NCBI GenBank assembly: GCA_947579605.1 | Contig: OX388305.1 | Span: 20,039,542-20,103,541 of the forward strand | Direction of reading: 5' to 3' | Source of the DNA: Athripsodes cinereus | Lineage: Eukaryota; Arthropoda; Insecta; Trichoptera; Leptoceridae | DNA length: 64,000 bases | Part shown: positions 4,193 through 43,763 of the stretch, piece after piece | How positions within the stretch are numbered: the first letter of the stretch is position 1 | Layout: each line of letters begins with the position of its first letter | Notes under the pieces: generated by a model | The model's input: the letters and a program-made list of their open reading frames with translations, nothing else | Databases searched by the model: none | What the model was told of the DNA's origin: nothing | Translations under genes and position numbers: made by a program

Positions 4193-4642
4193 GTGTGTAA
4201 GTAGATATATTTTACTGATGCTCGCTCACTTGTTGCCTTGTCCTTTTTTACATACCTATTAAGACACTCGTAGAAATTTCTGTGTTCCACTTTATGATTA
4301 ATTATTATCAGCATTGTTTTGCAATAGTGTGTAAGTAGATATATTTTACTGATGCTCGCTCACTCGTTGGCTTGTACTTTTTAACATACCTAGTAAAACA
4401 CTCGTAGAAATTTCTGTGTTCACTTTTATGATTAATTATTATCAGCATTGTTTTGCAATAGTGTGTAAGTAGGTAGATATATTTTACTGATGCTCGCTCA
4501 CTCGTTGGCTTGTACTTTTTTACATACCTAGTAAAACACTCGCAGAAATTTCTTTGTTCCACTTTATGATTATTAGTTACACTTTATGATTATAAGATAT
4601 GTAGTTATATAGTTATAATTATTATCAGCATTGTTCTGCAAT
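4193..4642. repeat. 134-bp minisatellite, about 3.3 copies
   Basis: Units begin with GTGTGTAAGTAG at 4193, 4327 and 4461, a constant spacing of 134 bases. A partial fourth copy (TATCAGCATTGTTCTGCAATAGT-like) ends near 4642 after a small rearrangement. Copies differ by single bases and short indels. The 84-codon minus frame inside it simply translates the repeat. Confidence 0.9.
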
Positions 4643-13382: not shown

Positions 13383-14442
13383 TTACAATCCATTGGATTG
13401 GTCTGCAACGAGTTTTGTCTTTCTTCTCCATTCGTCCCTATTCTCAGCCAGTCTTTTCAGCTCTACGCATGAGCCACAGTTCATGTCTCTCTTCAGTTGG
13501 TCCATATATAGCGTCTCTTGGTCGGCCTCTGCCATTTGTCCCCTCGGTCTTACCCTCTGCGATGGCGATGAGTAGTCCTGGGTGCCTGATGTTGTGGCCA
13601 ATCCATTTAGCTCGTTGTTGGCTGATTCTCTTAAGGAATTGTCTTTTTTCGCCTACCCTGGTTAACACCTCTTCATTTTCGACGTGCTCCAACCAATGGA
13701 TCTTAAGCATGCGTCTGTAGCACCACATCTCAAAGGCCGCCAACCGTCCGCTTTCACTCTTGCTGATGGTCCATGTCTCACAACCATAAAGCTGAATGCT
13801 CCATACAAAGGCTTTAGTAAGGTTCTTCCTTACGCTTAAGTCAATATTTGGGGATTCCAATATCTTTGATATTTTGTTAAAGGCAATCCTTGCCTGGTTT
13901 ATTCTGCTTACAATTTCTGCTTTGGAGCGTCCATCCTGGTTTATTCTGCTGCCCAGGTACACGAATTCACTTACTTGTTTGATGCTCACTCCATTTATGG
14001 CAATGTTCGCAGTCGCTTCCTCTCTTCCAACGACCATACATTTTGTTTTTTCTTTATTTATTTTCATGTTGTACTTTGACAACAGTATACTTTCCATTTT
14101 TCCTTAGGCTTCGTTCAGCTCCATCTCGGAGTCTACGAGCAGTGCTATGTCGTCAGCATATCTGATCATGTCGACCTTTTTCCCATTTATTTTTACTCCT
14201 GTCCAGTTCTTCATTTCTTCTCTGAGATCATCAACAGTTCGCTGTATATAGCAGTTAAAGAGAGCTGGCGACATTGAGCATCCTTGTCTTACGCCTTGTT
14301 CGACCCTTGCTTCTGCGCAGCTCTCTCCGCTTTTGATCACAGCCATTTCGTTCTTGTATAAGCTCCAGATTGCTCTTCTGTCTTTATAACTCATTACATG
14401 TAAAGTAAATTCTGTCTTTACATGTAAAGTAAAAATATGCAT
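13383..14442 (-). pseudogene. LINE reverse-transcriptase fragment, family L1a
   Basis: Minus-strand remnant of a non-LTR retrotransposon polymerase covering the last part of the reverse transcriptase and the C-terminal region. Visible in order: RQGCSMSPALFN (palm/fingers), the catalytic YADD box (MIRYADDIALL, near 14160), NKEKTKCM, the FVYLG block, LYGCETW (near 13790) and a basic C-terminal tail ending SNGL. An in-frame TAA stands at 14104-14106. One extra A near 13510 shifts the frame, because the related copy at 51574-51861 reads straight through as GRPRDAYMDQLK. The 5' part is missing. The clade looks RTE-like, but this rests on motif memory. Confidence 0.85.
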
Positions 14443-20352: not shown

Positions 20353-20495
20353 AACATAATTTTTTGTTAGTACCTACCTAAACTTAGTTCTTAAAATTAC
20401 TTTGTTAAAACAATATTCGACTCAGAAGCCACCCATCGTTAGTAATTTTTTTTATTAGCACCATTGCACAATGAATGAAAATATTAAAGTTATTT

Positions 20496-20713
20496 CATCA
20501 TCATCATCATCATCGCCCTCAACGCTCCTCTCGGGAGCACAGGGCAGAAACCAGCCTCCTCCATTCAGAGCGTCTCTGTGCCAATTGCGTCACCTCTTCC
20601 CACGACATTCCTTGCGCTCTGATATCGTTGTCATAGGAACGGTGTATTGTGAAAGAGGGACGCCCGGGCCTACGGAACCCCTGCGGACGGAAGAACAGTG
20701 CTCTTTTTGGCCA
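20496..20713 (-). mobile_element. LINE 3' end (3' segment of a twin-primed insertion), family L3
   Basis: On the minus strand, from 20713 down, the frame reads ALFFRPQGFRRPGRPS, then SYDNDIRAQGMSWEEV and WRRLVSALCSREER before a TGA near 20525, followed by a GAT-repeat tail at 20498-20515. This is the normal end of an RTE-like LINE polymerase. Its 5' neighbour at 20720-21019 is the preceding part of such a protein but in the opposite orientation. A decayed copy of this 3' end lies at 57535-57652. Confidence 0.8.
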
Positions 20714-20719
20714 ACTATC

Positions 20720-21019
20720 ATTGGACTAATGGTTGGCAATTCCCAAATATCTCAGGTTAGTAAATTCAGGTACCTGGGAGCAACCATAACGCCAGAGGGT
20801 GATCTCCGGTCGGAATTACCAATCCGCATAGGAGCAGCTAGCGGGGCTTTCAACAACATGAACAAAGTTTGGAAGGCGTCTGGACTCAGCATCAGGACAA
20901 AATGTCGCTTGTTCAATGCGTGCATCATCCCAATCCTTCTATATGGCTGCGAGTCTTGGCACTTAACCAAGGCTCAAGAGCGGAAGATACTAAGCTTTGA
21001 AAACAAGTGTCTTAGAAGG
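20720..21019 (+). mobile_element. LINE polymerase C-terminal region (inverted 5' segment), family L3
   Basis: The plus-strand frame contains FRYLGATITPEGDLRSE, LLYGCESWHLTKAQE and SFENKCLRR, blocks that lie just downstream of the reverse transcriptase in RTE-like LINEs. It ends abruptly after CLRR at 21019, where the candidate target duplication AAAGTTGTTT (21020-21029) begins; its partner AAAGTTATTT is at 20486-20495. Inverted relative to its own 3' end, as expected from twin priming. Confidence 0.8.
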
Positions 21020-21029
21020 AAAGTTGTTT

Positions 21030-21958
21030 AGGAATGTATTAATATAATATTCTGTTGTGAGATCTGTAACTCAAATATTGTTAAAAGTGAAAGAAATAGG
21101 TTTATCGTTAAATTTTAAATCTAATTCAAACTTCAATTCGGATAATTACTTCATTAAAAACAGTTAAGACACATAGTATTTTTTTCTTATATTTATTTAT
21201 TTTATTTCTCTTGCACATCATCATACACATAACAAAGTAACAAATCATTTTATATAAAAAAAAGAATGTGATGATATGCAGTGGCGAGATTATCACTTTA
21301 TAGTGATATTGTTTATAATCGTAGTATCTACTGATGTGTCATATTGATAATGATTTAAATAAATCCATCAATCTTACAACCATCAATCAATCAATCCGTA
21401 TTGTCAATTAGGGGTGACTTGTTCAAATTTCGAATGAATGTTGAAAGCAGGTACAAATCGTAGTAGTAACTGACCCAAATTAAAAAGAAATCACAAAAAC
21501 TATAGTAAACATAATATGCTTAGTTAAGTACCTACTGTATTACCTCTTCAAGTTGGTAGATAAGTAGTAGTGATGGTCCCGAGTTTCATATTTTTACGTT
21601 CGCCAATAAGAACATAATATAAACGTTTTTTGTCCTAAGTTTTCAAGATTCAGTAAAGGGTGTTTAGTAAATACCTACCTACTTATTATTTCAAATTTTC
21701 TACCTCCCGTCGTCGTCGTCAAATTTTTATGTTGGTAAAAGATTTTGAAATTGGTATTTGATTTTTTTTTATTTCATTTCCATTTTTTTATTATAAGTAA
21801 AATAAACTGTTTTTTTTTCATTTTTAATTTGGTAGCTAAAGGAATTTAAAATATTCCACGATCTCATCGTTTTTGTATGATTTTTTTTATGAACTTAGCC
21901 GAGCTTAAAAGCATAATTCTCAACATTCACATGTTTGAATATACATATAAATACTGGG
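21030..21958. repeat. AT-rich spacer with a retroposon 3' end (family V)
   Basis: At about 21213-21325 lies a block (GCACATCATCATACAC, CAGTGGCGAGATTATCAC, TAGTGATAT) recurring at 25876-25990; probably a minus-strand retroposon 3' end. The rest is AT-rich with no gene seen. Confidence 0.45.
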
Positions 21959-22111: not shown

Positions 22112-22612
22112 TGAGTATGCAAGTGAGACGTGGACATGGATGCAAGTGAGACGTGGACATGGTTAAAGAAGGATGAAAGTGGCATAAATGCAGTGGAAAT
22201 GAGATCGTTGAGAAGGATGTGTGGTAAAAGTCTGAGAGATCGTGTGCGTAACATTGATATACGAAAGGAATGTGGAATGAAAGTTGGTGTAATAACAAGG
22301 ATGAATGTAAATAAGTTAAGATGGTTTGGGCACGTGGAAAGAATGAATGAGGACAGAATGACTAAAAAGATATATTTGTCTGAGAGGAATGGTGCTCGGA
22401 GACGTGGACGTCCGAGGATTAAATGGCAAGATCATTTAAATCAAATCCTACAGGACGGTCACGTGTTGAGCACATTGAACAGGAGAGCATGCATGAGGAA
22501 TTGTATGACAGTGATGGAAGCGAAAGATGTATGCAAGTATAGAAGGAAGTGGCGCTCGATCCTTTCTGCCTACCCCGCGAGGGAAGCGGCGTGATGGTAT
22601 GTATGTATGTAT
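22112..22612 (+). mobile_element. 5'-truncated LINE, family L2, copy 2
   Basis: An open frame of about 154 codons (22130-22594) covers the LINE polymerase C-terminus: AVEMRSLRRMCG, KLRWFGHVERMNEDRM, RGRPRIKWQDHLNQIL and a terminal SAYPAREAA, with TGA at 22592-22594, then an ATGT-repeat tail (22598-22612). A 23-base tandem duplication (22117-22139 and 22140-22162) sits at the 5' edge. No catalytic domain is present. It is nearly identical in protein to the 33.8-kb copy, so the subfamily was active recently. Confidence 0.85.
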
Positions 22613-35406: not shown

Positions 35407-35410
35407 CTAC
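35407..35410. other. Target site duplication (CTAC), left
   Basis: CTAC immediately precedes the element; the matching CTAC follows it at 43760-43763. Confidence 0.8.
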
Positions 35411-35459
35411 TGCGACGGACTTTTGCATATACTTTTTATTCTTGCGCTCGCATGCGCTC

Positions 35460-35493
35460 TTTTACCTTGTACCCCTCATGGTACAAGGTAAAA
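35460..35493. other. Perfect 14-bp hairpin in the LTR
   Basis: TTTTACCTTGTACC (35460-35473) pairs with GGTACAAGGTAAAA (35480-35493) across a 6-base loop, 50-83 bases from the LTR end. The second LTR has it at 42174-42207. The position corresponds to the U5 side in element orientation. Confidence 0.85.
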
Positions 35494-35526
35494 TAATCAA
35501 TTATCACAATCTCAAAAAATAATTTT

Positions 35527-35621
35527 TAGCTCAGTCGGTAGAGATTTCAAAAATAAAACAAAGAGTATTGGAAAGTACAATTGACTATACGATAAATGCT
35601 CAGGGTCGAATGGGTTAACCC
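35527..35621 (+). other. tRNA-Lys-like segment within the LTR
   Basis: TAGCTCAGTCGGTAGAG (35527-35543) is an exact eukaryotic tRNA D-arm/box A sequence. CTCAGGGTCG with GGGTTAACCC (35599-35621) resembles the variable-loop and T-arm part of tRNA-Lys, but the box B is damaged. The middle is about 40 bases longer than in a tRNA and no acceptor stem is clear, so it is not a functional tRNA gene. The same segment is at 42241-42335. Confidence 0.5.
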
Positions 35622-36219
35622 AGATTTTATCACAAAGACTTCAAGACTTTTCTCTCTATAAATTCAACAATGCATATTGCCATTAAATCAACGGTGCCTT
35701 CCAACAATCCCCAATAAGAAGGAAAGATTCAGAAACAAAATAAAATTGCTATTTCATTATTTTCTTTTCAATTTATTCCAAACCTCCAGTATTCGATGAC
35801 ACCTTTGGTATGGTCAATGAATTTACATACATTTTATATAAACTTTCTCGACAGTAAAATAGTAAAAGATTAAAACCTTGTTAATCATTTGCTATGTGGC
35901 AATCTAACTAACCCTTAGATTAAAAGTTTAAAATTAAACAATGATTGTGGCACATCATCCTTAACTCCTACCCTTTCTTTTCAGAAACGACCTACATATA
36001 TCATAAAGTTATCAAACTCTGTTTGATTATACAATTTACATTAACTTTAGAACAAAATATTTATATATAATTATGAATGAATGAGAACAACCTGATCAAG
36101 TTATCTTCCTTCGAGTTCCACTTCACTTCCCGTTTCCCGAAATTGAAGGTTCCTTCCTGATAGGTACATAAGGTTTATTCTGGTATAAGAGGAAGTCAGC
36201 ATCTTGATAATTGAAAAAG

Positions 36220-36590
36220 ATTTATTCTCTTGTTAACTGAAGAATTTATTTTGGTCACAAGATATATCCTGAATAATTGAGAAATTCATTCTGGTACTAC
36301 GACATAACCTGAATTCATTCTAGTACTGAGGCGTATCCTGAATAACTGAGAAATTCATTCCGGTACTGAGACATAACTTGAATTCATTCTAGTACTGAGG
36401 CGTATCCTGAATTACTGAGAAATTCATTCCGGTACTGAAATATATCCTGAATAACTGAGGAATTCATTCCGGTACTGAGACATAACTTGAATTCATTCTA
36501 GTACTGAGGCGTATCCTGAATTACTGAGAAATTCATTCCGGTACTGAAATATATCCTGAATAACTGAGGAATTCATTCCGGTACTGAGAG
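36220..36590. repeat. Tandem repeats inside the LTR
   Basis: Subunits of roughly 35-40 bases built on TGAATTCATTC(T/C)(A/G)GTACTGAG and TATCCTGAATAACTGAG. Higher-order units starting ACTTGAATTCATTCTAG are spaced 109 bases (36376, 36485). The same block is at 42934-43304. Confidence 0.85.
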
Positions 36591-37045
36591 CCGTACATCC
36601 TTAAACATTAAAGGACAACGTAATTAGTATTTATCAAACTATGTTTCGGTTTATTTTATTAAACAACGAAATTTCTCTCATCGAAAATATAATTGTAACA
36701 ATTTAGACTCACCATATTTTTGATGACGGCCTGAATTACCACTGATTTTAATAATTAAATATGATTAAACTGTCAATCGACAAATAGAACACATTTCTAC
36801 AACTAATTTATACATTAATCAACCATTTTAAAATGGTAAGGTTTTTTTTTAAACCTTAATATTCACTATCGCATTTTGCGATCTGCCAATTTGGAATGTC
36901 GAATACAAAAAAAGGAAGCATTCCTGCTTTCGACCGCCAATATTGAGAAATCCTCCCACCACGCATGCGCGGCGTCGCGTTATCAATTTCTGTCTTGCCA
37001 ACGAACAAAATCATTTTTCTATAGTGATATAAAAATATCGCTACA

Positions 37046-39035
37046 TATTACCACCCACGCCCACCAAAAAAAATAGTGAAGCTATTTTTTTTTTATATCA
37101 GGTTATTCTCGTTCTATGTTCTCATCAACCCTATAACTGACTCTACCTTTTTTTTTTTTAAAGATTAATCTAAGCACTGCACTGGGCCCAGCCTTTTCTT
37201 TTAAAGAAAAACTGCAATTCCATAGGCGCCAATCTTGGTTTCGTTTAAATTTTAAAACTTTAATTTACATTCGTTTCCGAATATTCGGGTCAAACGACTT
37301 CCAAAATGAACAAAAATACCCGTAAATAATAAGTACTTAATGATAAAAAAATAATTTCTAAACCAGTGCAGGTCTCATCTTATCTTTGCATTTATAAATT
37401 ACACTTATATGTTAAATAATACATTTCCATTTTGTTACATTTACTAAATATCTTTTCAGATCTACTACATTTATTTTAAATTGTTTTGTGCCACAATATT
37501 CAAATATCTTCTACTACAAGCTCATATGATTTGCCACATTTTCCTTAGCTACATAACAAATTATATTAAAATTTCTTATATCTAAACTATATACATTTTG
37601 TGCCTTCTTTTTTTTTATTCAACATTCAAATACATTAAAATCTGTCTGTATATTATGCATTTATATTTTATATAACATTAAAAATATTTGATTCAACCTT
37701 TTGAATTGACTCACTTCAACATCATGTCATTTTCCTTTCTATTTTCATGTATGAAAATATCAATTTATCATCAATTCCATTTTCCTGCCATGTCTTATTC
37801 TCCCATCTCTCCTCAGATAAGCACATGCAACTACAACCAAAGGTTCTCAATCCCTTTCCTTTTTTATTTCCCTTTTATCCGTAAAATTACGTACTTCACT
37901 AATATATTTTCTTTCGAAAATTTCTAATCAACGACCCCATTTCATAATATAAGTTTCTCTACTTTGTTAAATGAATTTAACAATCGTATACACAATTATT
38001 TCGTAATTACTCGTTTTTTTATGGAGATAATTAAGGATTCTCTTCTTTACCACCGTATCCCCGATTTAAATTATGTATACTATAACTCCATTATCTACAT
38101 TTTCTCACATTACCTATCTCTATTTTTTTTTTTTAATATTTCCACTTTCATATTGAAAATTACATAGTCAATATACTCACAAAAGAGATATAACGAACAT
38201 CAACATTTGACCTTCTCGACATATTTCATTTTCAAATTCCTTTTTTATTATCTGACTTTACATCGCGAGACTATTGAGTACTACAAACCTATCATTTATC
38301 AACGTTGCAAATCCTTACTTTCATTCTATTACAATCATTCACTTTCATCCTTCGTCTATCTTTTTCCCCTTTCACCGCCTATATACCTACTACTTTCATT
38401 TGATTCATAATTAGACCCACAAAACGTTTTGATAAGACGGAATGATCAACTCTCATCTTAGATTACAAACTTCTCTTATTGGAATTCATAAACCATGACC
38501 CAATACTCATTCCTTGAGCATGAATCCAATTCACTACCATATCATATAAGCACTACGCATACTTCTATATACGTCTTGCTAACTCGTATCTCTAGTTTAT
38601 AAATGTATACACCGCGTATAGCTTGACACACTCGTATAAGAGATTCTGCCTTTATGCATACTACAAACTTTCAATACAAATCATTACACATCCCAGTAAT
38701 GACATTATAACACATGACCCATCTTACAGAGAATCATATTCTTACCTCACCTTTTTATCTGACCCTTTCTGTATTATGTACTCGCGTAGAGTTCATATTA
38801 TCGAAGAATCCAAATAATTTTTGCGAAGCGATTTTTTTTTCTTTTTAATTTTATCCAACCCTACTCTTTCGTAATTCTACGTACTATTTACTACGTAAAT
38901 TTTTTTTTTATCAAATTCATCTCCTTTTCCCCATTTCATTAAACTTAAATAGCTATATCCTATGAATACCTAACTAAAATTTATACAGTTTTTTTTTATT
39001 TACATTATTTTTCAATTTTCAGACGTCTTCGTCTT
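37046..39035 (-). other. Non-coding 3' region of the element (no pol)
   Basis: In the place where pol should follow gag, no minus-strand frame of 60 codons exists. From about 37600 to 39000 the plus strand is strikingly poor in G and rich in C and T, so the element's sense strand is purine-rich. Plus-strand frames here (37688-38817) are low-complexity by-products. A G-rich tract, GGTGGGCGTGGGTGG on the minus strand (37051-37065), lies 5 bases before the 3' LTR and is a possible, impure polypurine tract. Confidence 0.7.
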
Positions 39036-40178
39036 CTAATTTTCTCCCTTTCTTTCATCTTGTCGTTGCATTTCTGTTTTTACGTTATAAAATTTGTTAT
39101 TGGGATTCACATCCCTGTTTTGCCTTAGTCTTGCAAAACAATTTATATATACATGTCCGGGTTTGTTACAAAATCTACAAATTATATCCTTCCTATTTGA
39201 CCCTTGTCGATCAAAAACTCCTTTATTTCCATTCTTCTTACCATCTTCATGTTGGTACCTTTGATTACTGTCACAGCCATTCCGTGTTTGTTGTCTCTCC
39301 TCATTTTCGTTGTTTGAAGATCTGCAAGTTCTACTGCAACAAGCTCTGAACCCTGTGTCGTTGTCTTTATCTGTCAACGTCCCAGACACTGCTTCGTCCT
39401 TCTTTAATTCAAATAATTTTGTCTTATAATTAGATTTCTTCAGTTCGTTATTCATTGTCAACGTCTCGAACCTGGTACAGATCGTCACCAAATCTTCCAT
39501 ATCGTCAACTCTTGATGATGTCACAATACTTGCATATTCCGTATTCAAGCCGTGAACTGCAATATCTAGCAATTCTTCCTCATCTATTGGTGGACTTAGG
39601 TAGTTATTTTTATTGAGTAAATCGATTATGTAATCTGAAGCACTCTCACCGTTTCTTTGCTTGGCTGTCATCAAATTAATTCTCAGTGTGCGTTGTGTGT
39701 TTGTTCCTTCAAAACGTTTTAAAAATTTCAATTCAAAAACATCCCAATCATTCTCTATACCTATAGTTCTGAACCATGTTAATGCTTTATCAGTTAATAA
39801 AATGGGTAAATATCGCAATAATGTTCCATTATTTACGTTATATACTTTAGCTAATTCTTTCAATCTTTGGATAAATTCAATTGGGCTTTCTGCACCACTG
39901 TATGTTATATTGAACTTTCTAGGATCAATAAATTTTTCTACTGGTTCTGCATTTGTTTTCACAAGAGATTTACTACTATTCGTTTTCTTAATTGTTTTTC
40001 TGTTATTATTTAACTTCCTGATATACGATTTTACATTTATAAATGAATTACTCGTTGACGGTTTACTTTCCACTTTGCTTTCTTCCATCTTCTCTTCTTT
40101 ATTATCATTAGACGAACCAGCAACTTCCCTATTCATATTTTCTTGTACTTCTCCTTTATTTAATTCCTTATCCGCCAT
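39036..40178 (-). CDS. gag: Gag polyprotein of the LTR element, intact
   Basis: 380 codons, uninterrupted. ATG at 40178 in a good insect context (CAAGATGG). Residues 1-80 are charged and Ser/Asn/Lys-rich. About residues 82-240 form a Ty3/gypsy-type gag (capsid-like) domain: FIDPRKFNITYSG, LRYLPILLTDKALTWF, FLKRFEG, SASDYIIDLL and a helical stretch to FETL. A basic, Asn-rich linker follows, then a single CCHC zinc knuckle, CRFCNKPGHVYINC (residues 334-347, about 39138-39179), for RNA binding. It ends at a stop with no fusion to protease. It should assemble particles and package the element RNA, while the enzymes must come from elsewhere. The 176-codon plus frame at 39661-40191 is its antisense shadow. 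Confidence 0.9.
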   Translation of the reverse strand: MADKELNKGEVQENMNREVAGSSNDNKEEKMEESKVESKPSTSNSFINVKSYIRKLNNNRKTIKKTNSSKSLVKTNAEPVEKFIDPRKFNITYSGAESPIEFIQRLKELAKVYNVNNGTLLRYLPILLTDKALTWFRTIGIENDWDVFELKFLKRFEGTNTQRTLRINLMTAKQRNGESASDYIIDLLNKNNYLSPPIDEEELLDIAVHGLNTEYASIVTSSRVDDMEDLVTICTRFETLTMNNELKKSNYKTKLFELKKDEAVSGTLTDKDNDTGFRACCSRTCRSSNNENEERQQTRNGCDSNQRYQHEDGKKNGNKGVFDRQGSNRKDIICRFCNKPGHVYINCFARLRQNRDVNPNNKFYNVKTEMQRQDERKGEN

Positions 40179-41775
40179 CTTGAATTTCTAAATTATCTAT
40201 CTATTGCACTAAAATATGCTAATCCACAATTCAAAACTTTACAAAAAAATATTTTAAAAGAAATAATACATTAAATATTAAAGTCTTCCGTTATTCAAAA
40301 TTACTCTTAAATATCCCCATATCTATATAAACTAATATCATTAATATTAAAGTTTCAATCTCCACATTGATTTAATATATCCATATTAGAATTATTTGAA
40401 ACGACTTTATCGTATTAAATTGATTATGTAAAAATATCAACAATCTACTACGTCCATAATAGTATAGTTTACCCTATATATAAATATTATCATTCGATAT
40501 TAAAACATTGAAATCCAAACCTTTGTATCTTCCGTCCGCTTTACAATCTTCCGTCTCTTTCTAACTAAAGTGATTAACAATTATTATGCGTTGGAGAGAA
40601 AAGTACCTTCCTATCACAGTATGTACGGAATAGCATCAGAATAATAATAATATTATTTTCGTATAAAAATTCTAATCATACATATTTATTTCAGAATCGG
40701 ACAATGCTCAAAATAAATTATTTTCTTTATTTTTTTTTTTTTTTTATTTAAAATTAAATCTACTTTGTTCAACGTATTCCTTAGTTGTGAGTTGCAATAG
40801 CCGTACCAGAAGTATGAGAAGAATTCAGACAAGGCAATCAATCAAACAAATTTTCAATTTAAAATATAATAAAAACTCACCAGAAGGTTGTTTAATAAGT
40901 TAATAGGTATACTCCTTTTTGAATAAAATTAAAACTCGCAATCAGCTTTCTGTATTTTGACATGATGTTGGGTTTCGTCTTTCCATATCCTATCACACAT
41001 TTCCAATCAGCAATTTGAGCTAGAACATATTTTTTTAAAACTTATTAAATATCAAATTCAAAATCATTTTTCACACTTCTTTTACTTTTCTTTAACAAAA
41101 TTTTATTTTTTTGACTATGGTAATACCATTCAATTTTATACAAACTCAAAATAAAATCCACAAAATAAATTGATAAATAGATAACTTTTATCTACCATTT
41201 TTCAAATTAGGTATTCCACGAACAAAATTATTTTAAAATATTTTCAAACAATTTAAAAATTGACATATATTTTTTTTGACTAAATTCCTTTCTTCAATCA
41301 ATCATCTCAAAGCATGCAAAATAATATTAACTCAACAAATTAAAATAATGATAAAATATTGAGTCTACCCATAAATATTCTTTTTTTTCATTATGTTACA
41401 TATTCAATAAATATATTTAACTACCGCGACTCTGAAAAAAATGTTTTGTTACATATTCAAAATTTTTCATTCATTTCAATTTACCTACAGTATTTTTTAA
41501 ACATTATGTTACAAATTGTTTTATACTGATAACAAAATATAATTTTTAAAATTAAAATCGAAATACAATTTAACCCTTCTGCCACCAAAATTCAAATATT
41601 AATTTTGCCACATAAATTAAAATTTAAAAAAAAACTTTTTTTTTTTTTAAAACAAAACTTATTCTACTTATAACTATTAATGAATGCTCTTTTGTATTCA
41701 AGACACCAAATTAGACAATTAATAAAAAAATCTTGAGTCTAAGTAATAAAATTTTTGGGTTCAGCGCGTCTTTAC
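40179..41775 (-). other. Long untranslated leader of the element
   Basis: About 1.6 kb between the repeat block and gag with no usable minus frame; very AT-rich, with poly-T/A runs near 40733 and 41637. A copy of the repeat word CCCTTCTGCCACCAAAATTC also occurs alone at about 41575. Confidence 0.65.
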
Positions 41776-41782
41776 ATTTTAC

Positions 41783-42124
41783 AAAGGTTGACCGACATCT
41801 TGGGTGACATGAATATGCGACCCTTCTGCCACCAAAATTCAATTCAACTTAAATTATATAAAGGTTGGCTGACACTTTGGGCAACATGAATATGTGACCC
41901 CTCTGCCACCAAAATTCAATTCAACCTAAATTATATAAAGGTTGGCTGACACTTTGGGCAACATGAATATGTGACCCCTCTGCCACCAAAATTCAATTTA
42001 ACTTAAATTATATAAAGGTTGGCTGACACTTTGGGCGCCATGAATATGTGACCCTTCTGCCACCAAAATTTAATTCGTCTTTAAATTCTATAAAGGTCGG
42101 CTGACACTTTGGGCGCCATGAATA
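41783..42124 (-). repeat. 77-bp tandem repeat carrying the primer-binding site
   Basis: Units recur at 41802, 41879, 41956, 42033 and 42111 (position of the GGG of the primer-site motif), spacing 77, 77, 77 and 78. Each holds a version of GGCTGACACTTTGGGCGCCA and CTGCCACCAAAATT. The two units nearest the LTR keep the exact GGGCGCCA; the others read GGGCAACA or GGGTGACA. Confidence 0.9.
42101..42118 (-). other. Primer-binding site, tRNA-Lys type
   Basis: On the minus strand TGGCGCCCAAAGTGTCAG starts 6 bases after the 5' LTR. It matches the complement of the tRNA-Lys(CUU) 3' end (TGGCGCCCAACGTG) at 13 of the first 14 positions. Confidence 0.75.
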
Positions 42125-43759
42125 TGCGACGGACTTTTGCATATACTTTTTATTCTTGCGCTCGCATGCGCTCTTTTACCTTGTACCCCTCATGGTACAA
42201 GGTAAAATAATCAATTATCACAATCTCAAAAAATAATTTTTAGCTCAGTCGGTAGAGATTTCAAAAATAAAACAAAGAGTATTGGAAAGTACAATTGACT
42301 ATACGATAAATGCTCAGGGTCGAATGGGTTAACCCAGATTTTATCACAAAGACTTCAAGACTTTTCTCTCTATAAATTCAACAATGCATATTGCCATTAA
42401 ATCAACGGTGCCTTCCAACAATCCCCAATAAGAAGGAAAGATTCAGAAACAAAATAAAATTGCTATTTCATTATTTTCTTTTCAATTTATTCCAAACCTC
42501 CAGTATTCGATGACACCTTTGGTATGGTCAATGAATTTACATACATTTTATATAAACTTTCTCGACAGTAAAATAGTAAAAGATTAAAACCTTGTTAATC
42601 ATTTGCTATGTGGCAATCTAACTAACCCTTAGATTAAAAGTTTAAAATTAAACAATGATTGTGGCACATCATCCTTAACTCCTACCCTTTCTTTTCAGAA
42701 ACGACCTACATATATCATAAAGTTATCAAACTCTGTTTGATTATACAATTTACATTAACTTTAGAACAAAATATTTATATATAATTATGAATGAATGAGA
42801 ACAACCTGATCAAGTTATCTTCCTTCGAGTTCCACTTCACTTCCCGTTTCCCGAAATTGAAGGTTCCTTCCTGATAGGTACATAAGGTTTATTCTGGTAT
42901 AAGAGGAAGTCAGCATCTTGATAATTGAAAAAGATTTATTCTCTTGTTAACTGAAGAATTTATTTTGGTCACAAGATATATCCTGAATAATTGAGAAATT
43001 CATTCTGGTACTACGACATAACCTGAATTCATTCTAGTACTGAGGCGTATCCTGAATAACTGAGAAATTCATTCCGGTACTGAGACATAACTTGAATTCA
43101 TTCTAGTACTGAGGCGTATCCTGAATTACTGAGAAATTCATTCCGGTACTGAAATATATCCTGAATAACTGAGGAATTCATTCCGGTACTGAGACATAAC
43201 TTGAATTCATTCTAGTACTGAGGCGTATCCTGAATTACTGAGAAATTCATTCCGGTACTGAAATATATCCTGAATAACTGAGGAATTCATTCCGGTACTG
43301 AGAGCCGTACATCCTTAAACATTAAAGGACAACGTAATTAGTATTTATCAAACTATGTTTCGGTTTATTTTATTAAACAACGAAATTTCTCTCATCGAAA
43401 ATATAATTGTAACAATTTAGACTCACCATATTTTTGATGACGGCCTGAATTACCACTGATTTTAATAATTAAATATGATTAAACTGTCAATCGACAAATA
43501 GAACACATTTCTACAACTAATTTATACATTAATCAACCATTTTAAAATGGTAAGGTTTTTTTTTAAACCTTAATATTCACTATCGCATTTTGCGATCTGC
43601 CAATTTGGAATGTCGAATACAAAAAAAGGAAGCATTCCTGCTTTCGACCGCCAATATTGAGAAATCCTCCCACCACGCATGCGCGGCGTCGCGTTATCAA
43701 TTTCTGTCTTGCCAACGAACAAAATCATTTTTCTATAGTGATATAAAAATATCGCTACA
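42125..43759 (-). repeat. 5' LTR (1635 bp)
   Basis: Sequence-identical by reading to 35411-37045, including hairpin, tRNA-like segment and tandem repeats. It should hold the promoter for gag transcription toward lower coordinates. The 65-codon plus frame at 43590 is incidental. Confidence 0.95.
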
Positions 43760-43763
43760 CTAC
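43760..43763. other. Target site duplication (CTAC), right
   Basis: CTAC follows the LTR end CGCTACA; partner at 35407-35410. Confidence 0.8.

Follow-up and report, generated by a model that had tools for sequence, protein, structure and literature searches.

How does a long terminal repeat (LTR) retrotransposon that encodes a Gag protein and no polymerase come to carry the marks of very recent movement? The question is raised by an element of the trichopteran Athripsodes cinereus, found in a stretch of 64,000 nucleotides (assembly GCA_947579605.1, contig OX388305.1, positions 20,039,542 to 20,103,541 of the forward strand; the whole stretch is called the window, and coordinates refer to it). 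Gag-only LTR elements have been described mainly in plants, and an initial annotation, made from the letters alone, proposed that this element is an insect equivalent that supplies its own particle protein and borrows reverse transcriptase (RT) and integrase. We find that the window copy is very probably one of at least 24 intact gag-only copies of Ty3/gypsy type which, judged from sequence comparison, would provide Gag in cis and take their enzymes from a gag-pol partner resident in the same genome.

Structure of the element

The element occupies 35411..43759 on the minus strand, 8349 bp in total, and its features are on that strand unless otherwise stated. Its 5' LTR (42125..43759) and 3' LTR (35411..37045) are identical across 1635 bp, the identity ending there, with TG...CA ends and CTAC at both flanks (35407-35410 and 43760-43763), which flank comparison marks as the two copies of a target-site duplication. 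These features, like the primer-binding site, had been reported in the initial annotation and were all recovered. The primer site TGGCGCCCAAAGTGTCAG (42101..42118), beginning TGGCGCCCAA, starts 6 nt inward of the 5' LTR within five 77-bp tandem units (41767..42130), each with an LTR end and a primer site; TGGCGCCC is kept in the two units closest to the LTR, and the primer sites of the inner units have decayed. The number of units varies from 3 to 6 depending on the copy. Each LTR also contains a 69/109-bp minisatellite (36243-36589 and 42957-43303), and LTR length ranges from 1332 to 1635 bp among copies.

Between the 5' LTR and gag lies an untranslated leader of 1.9 kb (40179..42124), common to gag-pol and gag-less copies of the element. 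Gag is followed by a 3' untranslated region (3'UTR; 37046..39035) that holds no coding frame and is ~96–97% identical to the post-pol 3'UTR in the four gag-pol copies read. A polypurine-like tract (37046..37075) stands just before the 3' LTR, its last 20 nt invariant in 19 of 19 copies. Two LTRs, a target duplication, a primer site and a polypurine-like tract identify an LTR retrotransposon, and its place in Ty3/gypsy (Metaviridae) is given by Retrotrans_gag here together with the order protease, RT, RNase H, integrase, the latter read in four partner copies and not on the window copy. With a single intact gag, no pol found and several copies, the element is TR-GAG-like.

Gag and the absence of pol

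The gag gene (39036..40178) runs from an ATG at 40178 to a stop at 39036, 380 codons in an open frame of 383; it matches Pfam Retrotrans_gag (E=4e-8) and holds the CCHC zinc knuckle CRFCNKPGHVYINC (39138..39179), as first described. The accompanying claim that pol motifs and long sense frames are lacking elsewhere also stands: apart from gag there is no internal sense frame longer than 63 aa, stops in the sense frames number 49–55 per 645 codons in the leader and 55–66 per ~663 codons after gag, and the longest sense frames of these two regions (51 and 53 aa) are close to the shuffled medians (54 and 51). None of the 10 non-gag sense pieces scanned against Pfam, from the 20 of at least 30 aa, reached a curated cut-off. 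A 185-aa open frame runs antisense to gag (39634-40191, plus strand) and is probably a by-product of codon composition.

Comparison of Gag with a protein database yielded 2044 candidates and none with E<=0.001, and a scan of viral contigs returned no relative. Structure prediction was more informative when a 13-row alignment was used (pLDDT was only 33 from the single sequence), giving pLDDT 80–92 for the capsid part (residues 91–240) and a pTM of 0.34 for the whole model. The closest structures to the modelled capsid are those of the Arc, dArc1 and PNMA2 capsids (E 2e-4 to 7e-4), with Copia weaker (0.018).

Three classes of copies in the host genome

The genome searched was the window's own (716 Mb, 160 contigs). 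The LTR probe, for which the best 40 of 211 candidates were scored, gave 40 full or nearly full matches, comprising 19 LTR pairs (the window's included) and two unpaired LTRs. For Gag the best 107 of 953 candidates were scored and for pol the best 60 of 2156, so counts from these two lists are lower bounds; 105 of the 107 Gag matches were cross-tabulated, two short fragments (C17:11854461 and C25:24085528) of the window element's own family, F1, being left out. A Gag was taken to have a listed pol when the same strand held one no more than 9 kb away. Three related families, F2–F4, were separated by identity to the window Gag and by frame length, not by a tree.

F1 includes at least 24 intact, full-length 383-codon Gags that are 96–100% identical, and a listed pol accompanies none of the 24, as against 10 of 10 listed F1 gag-pol copies; nine more listed F1 Gags are truncated or stop-bearing and likewise have no listed pol. 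Because the pol list also reaches four more distant families (80%, 75%, 72% and 67–68%), full-length F1 pol has probably been listed throughout. A pol at the corresponding position in every other copy, named at the outset as a finding that would refute the proposal, is thus not what the genome shows, and in the five gag-only copies that were read the absence of pol is seen directly in the sequence. Another intact gag-only Gag lies ~22 kb before the window start (contig C1:20016495-20017643).

The 19 copies read consist of four gag-pol copies (C17, C6, C15, C4b), five gag-only copies (the window's, C11, C18, C8, C9b) and ten gag-less copies, of which C9c additionally contains foreign DNA. LTR, leader and 3'UTR are common to all three classes, aligned pieces being ~90–99% identical; between the four gag-pol copies and the gag-only copies the leader and 3'UTR are ~95–97% identical and LTR pieces 90–99%. 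Each gag-pol copy read encodes Retrotrans_gag, aspartyl protease, RT, RNase H and integrase, with the frame split in C4b. No further sense frame of at least 110 aa follows pol in these four copies, and no wider search for env was made. At least 10 full or nearly full F1 gag-pol copies are present, and two further partial pol places occur among the matches listed. The genome therefore holds both things for which the annotation had proposed to look, namely multiple gag-only copies and an autonomous relative, which in the four copies read has the same LTR, leader, primer site and 3'UTR, and a partner with the same ends is what a trans-mobilised element should have.

Recent insertion

The annotation's identical LTRs had suggested very recent movement, and this extends to every class: the LTR pairs of the 19 copies show 7 differences in 27,837 positions, 0 or 1 per copy. 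At the substitution rate of Heliconius, 2.9e-9 per site per generation, the mean insertion age is ~43,000 generations for these copies, a sample that favours young ones. Duplications of 4 bp are clear in 18 of the 19, C17, in an AT repeat, showing none. The five gag-only copies occupy separate insertion sites with duplications (element strand) of GTAG (window), AAAC, GTAT, CTAC and GTAT. This variation, and the recurrence of the same structure on many chromosomes, led us to reject a pol hidden by assembly error, an explanation in whose favour nothing was found and which we consider extremely improbable.

The primer site is TGGCGCCCAAAGTGTCAG in 14 of the 19 copies, a one-base variant of it in C1b, and TGGCGCCCAACGTGGGGC in the remaining four (gag-pol C17 and gag-less C20, C12 and C9c). 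We take TGGCGCCCAACGTGGGGC to be complementary to the 3' end of tRNA-Lys. Reverse transcription can be expected to leave a trace of this kind, a copy of its primer tRNA within the primer site, and TGGCGCCCAACGTGGGGC would represent it in two classes, gag-pol and gag-less, with none among the five gag-only copies.

The gag-only Gag and its partner

Comparison of the two proteins indicates that the gag-only Gag is more than the partner's Gag minus pol. Residues 1–165 (N-terminal part, 39691..40178) are 92–99% identical to the partner in protein and ~95–97% in nucleotides, but from open-frame residue ~166 onwards (39065..39690) the two are unlike, with 47% identity in the capsid C-lobe and 23% in the nucleocapsid part. 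None of the 10 listed partner copies, whose Gag retains a basic tail, has the CCHC knuckle, which occurs both in the gag-only Gag and in all seven F2–F4 Gag-Pol copies compared. No gag-pol copy bearing the gag-only C-half occurs among the Gag matches listed, and the partner's pol is ~80% identical to that of F2. The nucleocapsid part of the gag-only Gag is nearer to F2–F4 (20–29% identity, against 2–10% for the partner) and its C-lobe nearer to F2 (54% against 49%); on these grounds we prefer the view that the gag-only lineage keeps an older, knuckle-bearing C-half, that the partner has the other one, and that the ends of the elements have been homogenised by recombination. Weighed against it is the C-lobe identity to F3 and F4, where the gag-only Gag is the farther of the two (39–44% against 42–49%), and a separate recombination with a lost family would account for the gag-only C-half as well.

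The missing knuckle could point to a mutualism in which the partner's fused Gag-Pol needs free, knuckle-bearing Gag from the gag-only copies, the two forming one two-component element. In nine of the 10 listed partner copies Gag and Pol form a single frame (1313, 1361 or 1380 codons) and gag has no frame of its own, C4b being split, and listed intact gag-only copies number 24 to the 10 full or nearly full gag-pol copies. There is also a precedent at Drosophila telomeres in HeT-A and TART, of which one contributes a Gag-like protein and the other RT, although these are non-LTR elements of chromosome ends (PMC4700185). The basic tail of the partner Gag speaks against such dependence, as do the youth and intactness of the gag-pol copies themselves and the mobility of gag-less copies, and free Gag could also arise by splicing or protein turnover. 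Some LTR elements, moreover, work without a CCHC motif. Fused frames are likewise functional in some of them, Ty5 for example (PMC4700185). A two-component form would be a sharper version of the supply of Gag in cis and enzymes in trans, and is compatible with it, but we consider it rather unlikely.

The excision junction and the order of the classes

At 39036..39064 the end of gag is joined to the 3'UTR at a point beyond the partner's pol stop, and the junction itself provides the stop codon of Gag. A 28-base pattern spanning it occurs at 70 places in the genome with at most 2 mismatches, the reversed control giving 0. All 24 intact gag-only copies have it, and so do 39 places where no Gag is listed; among the latter, by coordinates, are nine of the ten gag-less copies read (the exception being C25). 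Also by coordinates, it is found at none of the 10 listed gag-pol copies. Eight gag-less copies carry one common gag deletion with an identical junction. Since the junction is shared by the gag-only and most gag-less copies and by no gag-pol copy, the order that best reads from these sequences is gag-pol first, gag-only next and gag-less last, and the gag-only lineage most likely had a single origin in which pol was lost through fusion of the gag end to the 3'UTR past the pol stop, the product later multiplying.

If one autonomous copy had recently undergone a simple internal deletion, it too would have LTR, leader and 3'UTR in common with gag-pol copies, but this would not give one junction in 24 copies, nor a Gag C-half and knuckle that differ from those of the autonomous copy and a C-half that no listed gag-pol copy has; we rejected this explanation as very unlikely.

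The gag-less class bears on a different explanation, in which the elements are pure parasites, comparable to helper-carried defective elements, and Gag is retained as a passenger or as a cis packaging sequence, which is also a form of trans-mobilisation. Gag-less copies are equally young and mostly carry the junction pattern, and a dN/dS test on the five gag-only copies read was not significant (pooled dN/dS 0.37; 0.20 for residues 166–383). On the other side, Gag is intact and full-length in 24 of 33 listed copies, and its C-half is still open, at a divergence from the partner's similar to that from the C-halves of other families. We regard this explanation as possible but doubtful.

Mosaics across the classes

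Trees of the leader (18 copies), 3'UTR (19) and LTR (19) do not separate the classes and have few well-supported branches. Three pairs of copies, chosen as extremes, are mosaic. Between C6 (gag-pol) and C25 (gag-less), the sole cross-class pair of the three, there are 0 differences in 900 LTR positions, 32 in 1559 of the leader and 43 in 1932 of the 3'UTR (Fisher, leader against LTR 7e-7, 3'UTR against LTR 1e-7). C9d and C23, both gag-less, differ at 2 of 1800 leader and 46 of 1927 3'UTR positions, and C8 and C11, both gag-only, at 1 of 1936 3'UTR and 30 of 1558 leader positions. Fisher p values for the three pairs run from 9e-6 to 3e-11 and are below 0.05 after correction for 513 comparisons. 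Overall 34 of 153 pairs are heterogeneous, a count on which we do not rely because the leader evolves faster than the 3'UTR. Retroviral recombination requires two RNAs per particle, and the mosaics therefore lend support to co-packaging.

Related families

A second gag-only lineage seems to be present in F2. In that family a listed pol accompanies 8 of 8 379-codon Gags and four 1428-codon fused frames, and none of the 16 stop-free 367-codon Gags. One 367-codon copy (L052; 1495 bases read, LTRs not included) matches three F2 gag-pol copies at 98.7–99.5% identity as far as its last codon and past the frame end continues in the F2 3'UTR (98.8–99.1%), entered ~15 nt beyond the pol stop; its sequence reads as a clean excision of pol in which the junction holds the stop codon, a layout that F1 also has. 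Two other Gag types of F2 and F3, with 379 and 373 codons, were dropped as gag-only candidates, a listed pol standing beside 8 of 8 of the former and 13 of 19 stop-free Gags of the latter. No listed pol accompanies the remaining six stop-free 373-codon Gags, one F3 Gag of 369 codons or any of the four short F4 Gags, so that F4 and part of F3 may be further gag-only cases, candidates from the listing alone.

The gag-pol copies of F2 take two forms, one with a 379-codon Gag and a 1053-codon pol frame, which from their lengths would lie in different reading frames, and one with a single fused frame of 1428 codons. An eight-A run stands near the gag/pol border in four fused autonomous copies of F2 and F3 (L032, L035, L037, L039), and the gag-pol copies of F1 and F4 are listed as fused frames, except the split C4b.

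Other features of the window

Three frames at 13444-14103 (minus strand), 20459-21031 (plus) and 22127-22594 (plus) resemble the ends of RT genes of long interspersed nuclear elements; the second matches Pfam DUF6451 (9e-8), the only match above cut-off among the three. A 134-bp tandem repeat of 2.8 copies lies at 4193-4572, and Rfam and tRNA scans of the window gave no match.

Discussion

Gag in cis and enzymes in trans is the most likely basis on which these copies have spread, as far as comparison of copies can indicate. After the single loss of pol and the multiplication of the lineage, the gag-only RNA would have retained the partner's LTR, primer site, long leader and 3'UTR, and the element would make its own capsid and CCHC nucleocapsid protein. 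Packaging would proceed through the shared leader and Gag, in particles formed jointly with the partner's Gag-Pol, whose enzymes would then reverse-transcribe and integrate the gag-only RNA. Of the scheme first proposed, the further copies and a partner with the same ends have been found; that Gag is made and used, that RNAs are co-packaged and that enzymes come in trans is what we infer from them.

Several observations weigh against this reading. The gag-less copies have also moved recently, so that Gag in cis is not strictly needed, and the mosaics could partly reflect gene conversion. In the five gag-only Gags, 10 of 17 variable codons are nonsynonymous where 72.5% are expected (p=0.16), and over residues 1–165 the proportion is 4 of 4. 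The TM-scores of the first seven structure matches are low (0.19–0.29 by query, 0.38–0.61 by target). Finally, the scope of the pol list would let a truncated pol beside an unread Gag escape notice, and the copies read, being the best matches to the window LTR, are biased towards young ones.

A more far-reaching reading, which we offer tentatively as improbable, is that of a split retrotransposon whose free, knuckle-bearing Gag and enzymes are carried on two co-packaged, constantly recombining and interdependent genomes. Such a system would have arisen more than once in related families within one host genome, and the Gag C-halves would be long-diverged alleles kept apart, with LTR, leader, Gag N-half and 3'UTR homogenised by template switching.

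Plant TR-GAG elements are smaller than about 4 kb, a limit that the present element, at 8349 bp, exceeds. It was long unclear whether TR-GAG elements are mobile or only a source of Gag for others, and one such element has moved in Arabidopsis, where AT5TE33540 is an example of the group (PMC8704663). Likeness lies in the LTRs, the lone intact gag frame, a gag-pol relative within the genome and signs of movement (PMC8704663), whereas here the element is of Ty3/gypsy type and 8.3 kb long, the C-half and knuckle of its Gag are unlike the partner's, a gag-less class shares its junction, and a related family has a second gag-only lineage. The C and D types of bovine ERVK[2-1-LTR], like MusD and ETn, also form competent and defective classes that share ends and recombine, with a replaced central segment and a parasite-of-parasite pattern, and defective copies are the more numerous in cattle; the D types have no functional genes, whereas an intact Gag is kept here (PMC10924933). 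BARE-2 of barley, named in the initial annotation as a gag-only example, is like the window element in relying on a product of a related element but is the reverse case, since it cannot make Gag, while the window element has Gag and no pol was found in it (PMC3735527). PbTRIM of the harvester ant is likewise a non-autonomous LTR element of an insect, but is described as small, without a coding domain and with no partner found (PMC3532108). Among the titles and abstracts that searches of open-licence papers brought up, none reports a gag-only LTR element in an insect, a result that leaves room for published cases.

In A. cinereus, helper, gag-only and gag-less classes coexist in a single genome of chromosome scale; each class has very young copies, and mosaics between them are visible. 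Together with the gag-only lineage of a sister family, this coexistence would make the choice between cheating and division of labour directly testable, and the helper Gag without a CCHC knuckle would be a sharp point at which to test it.

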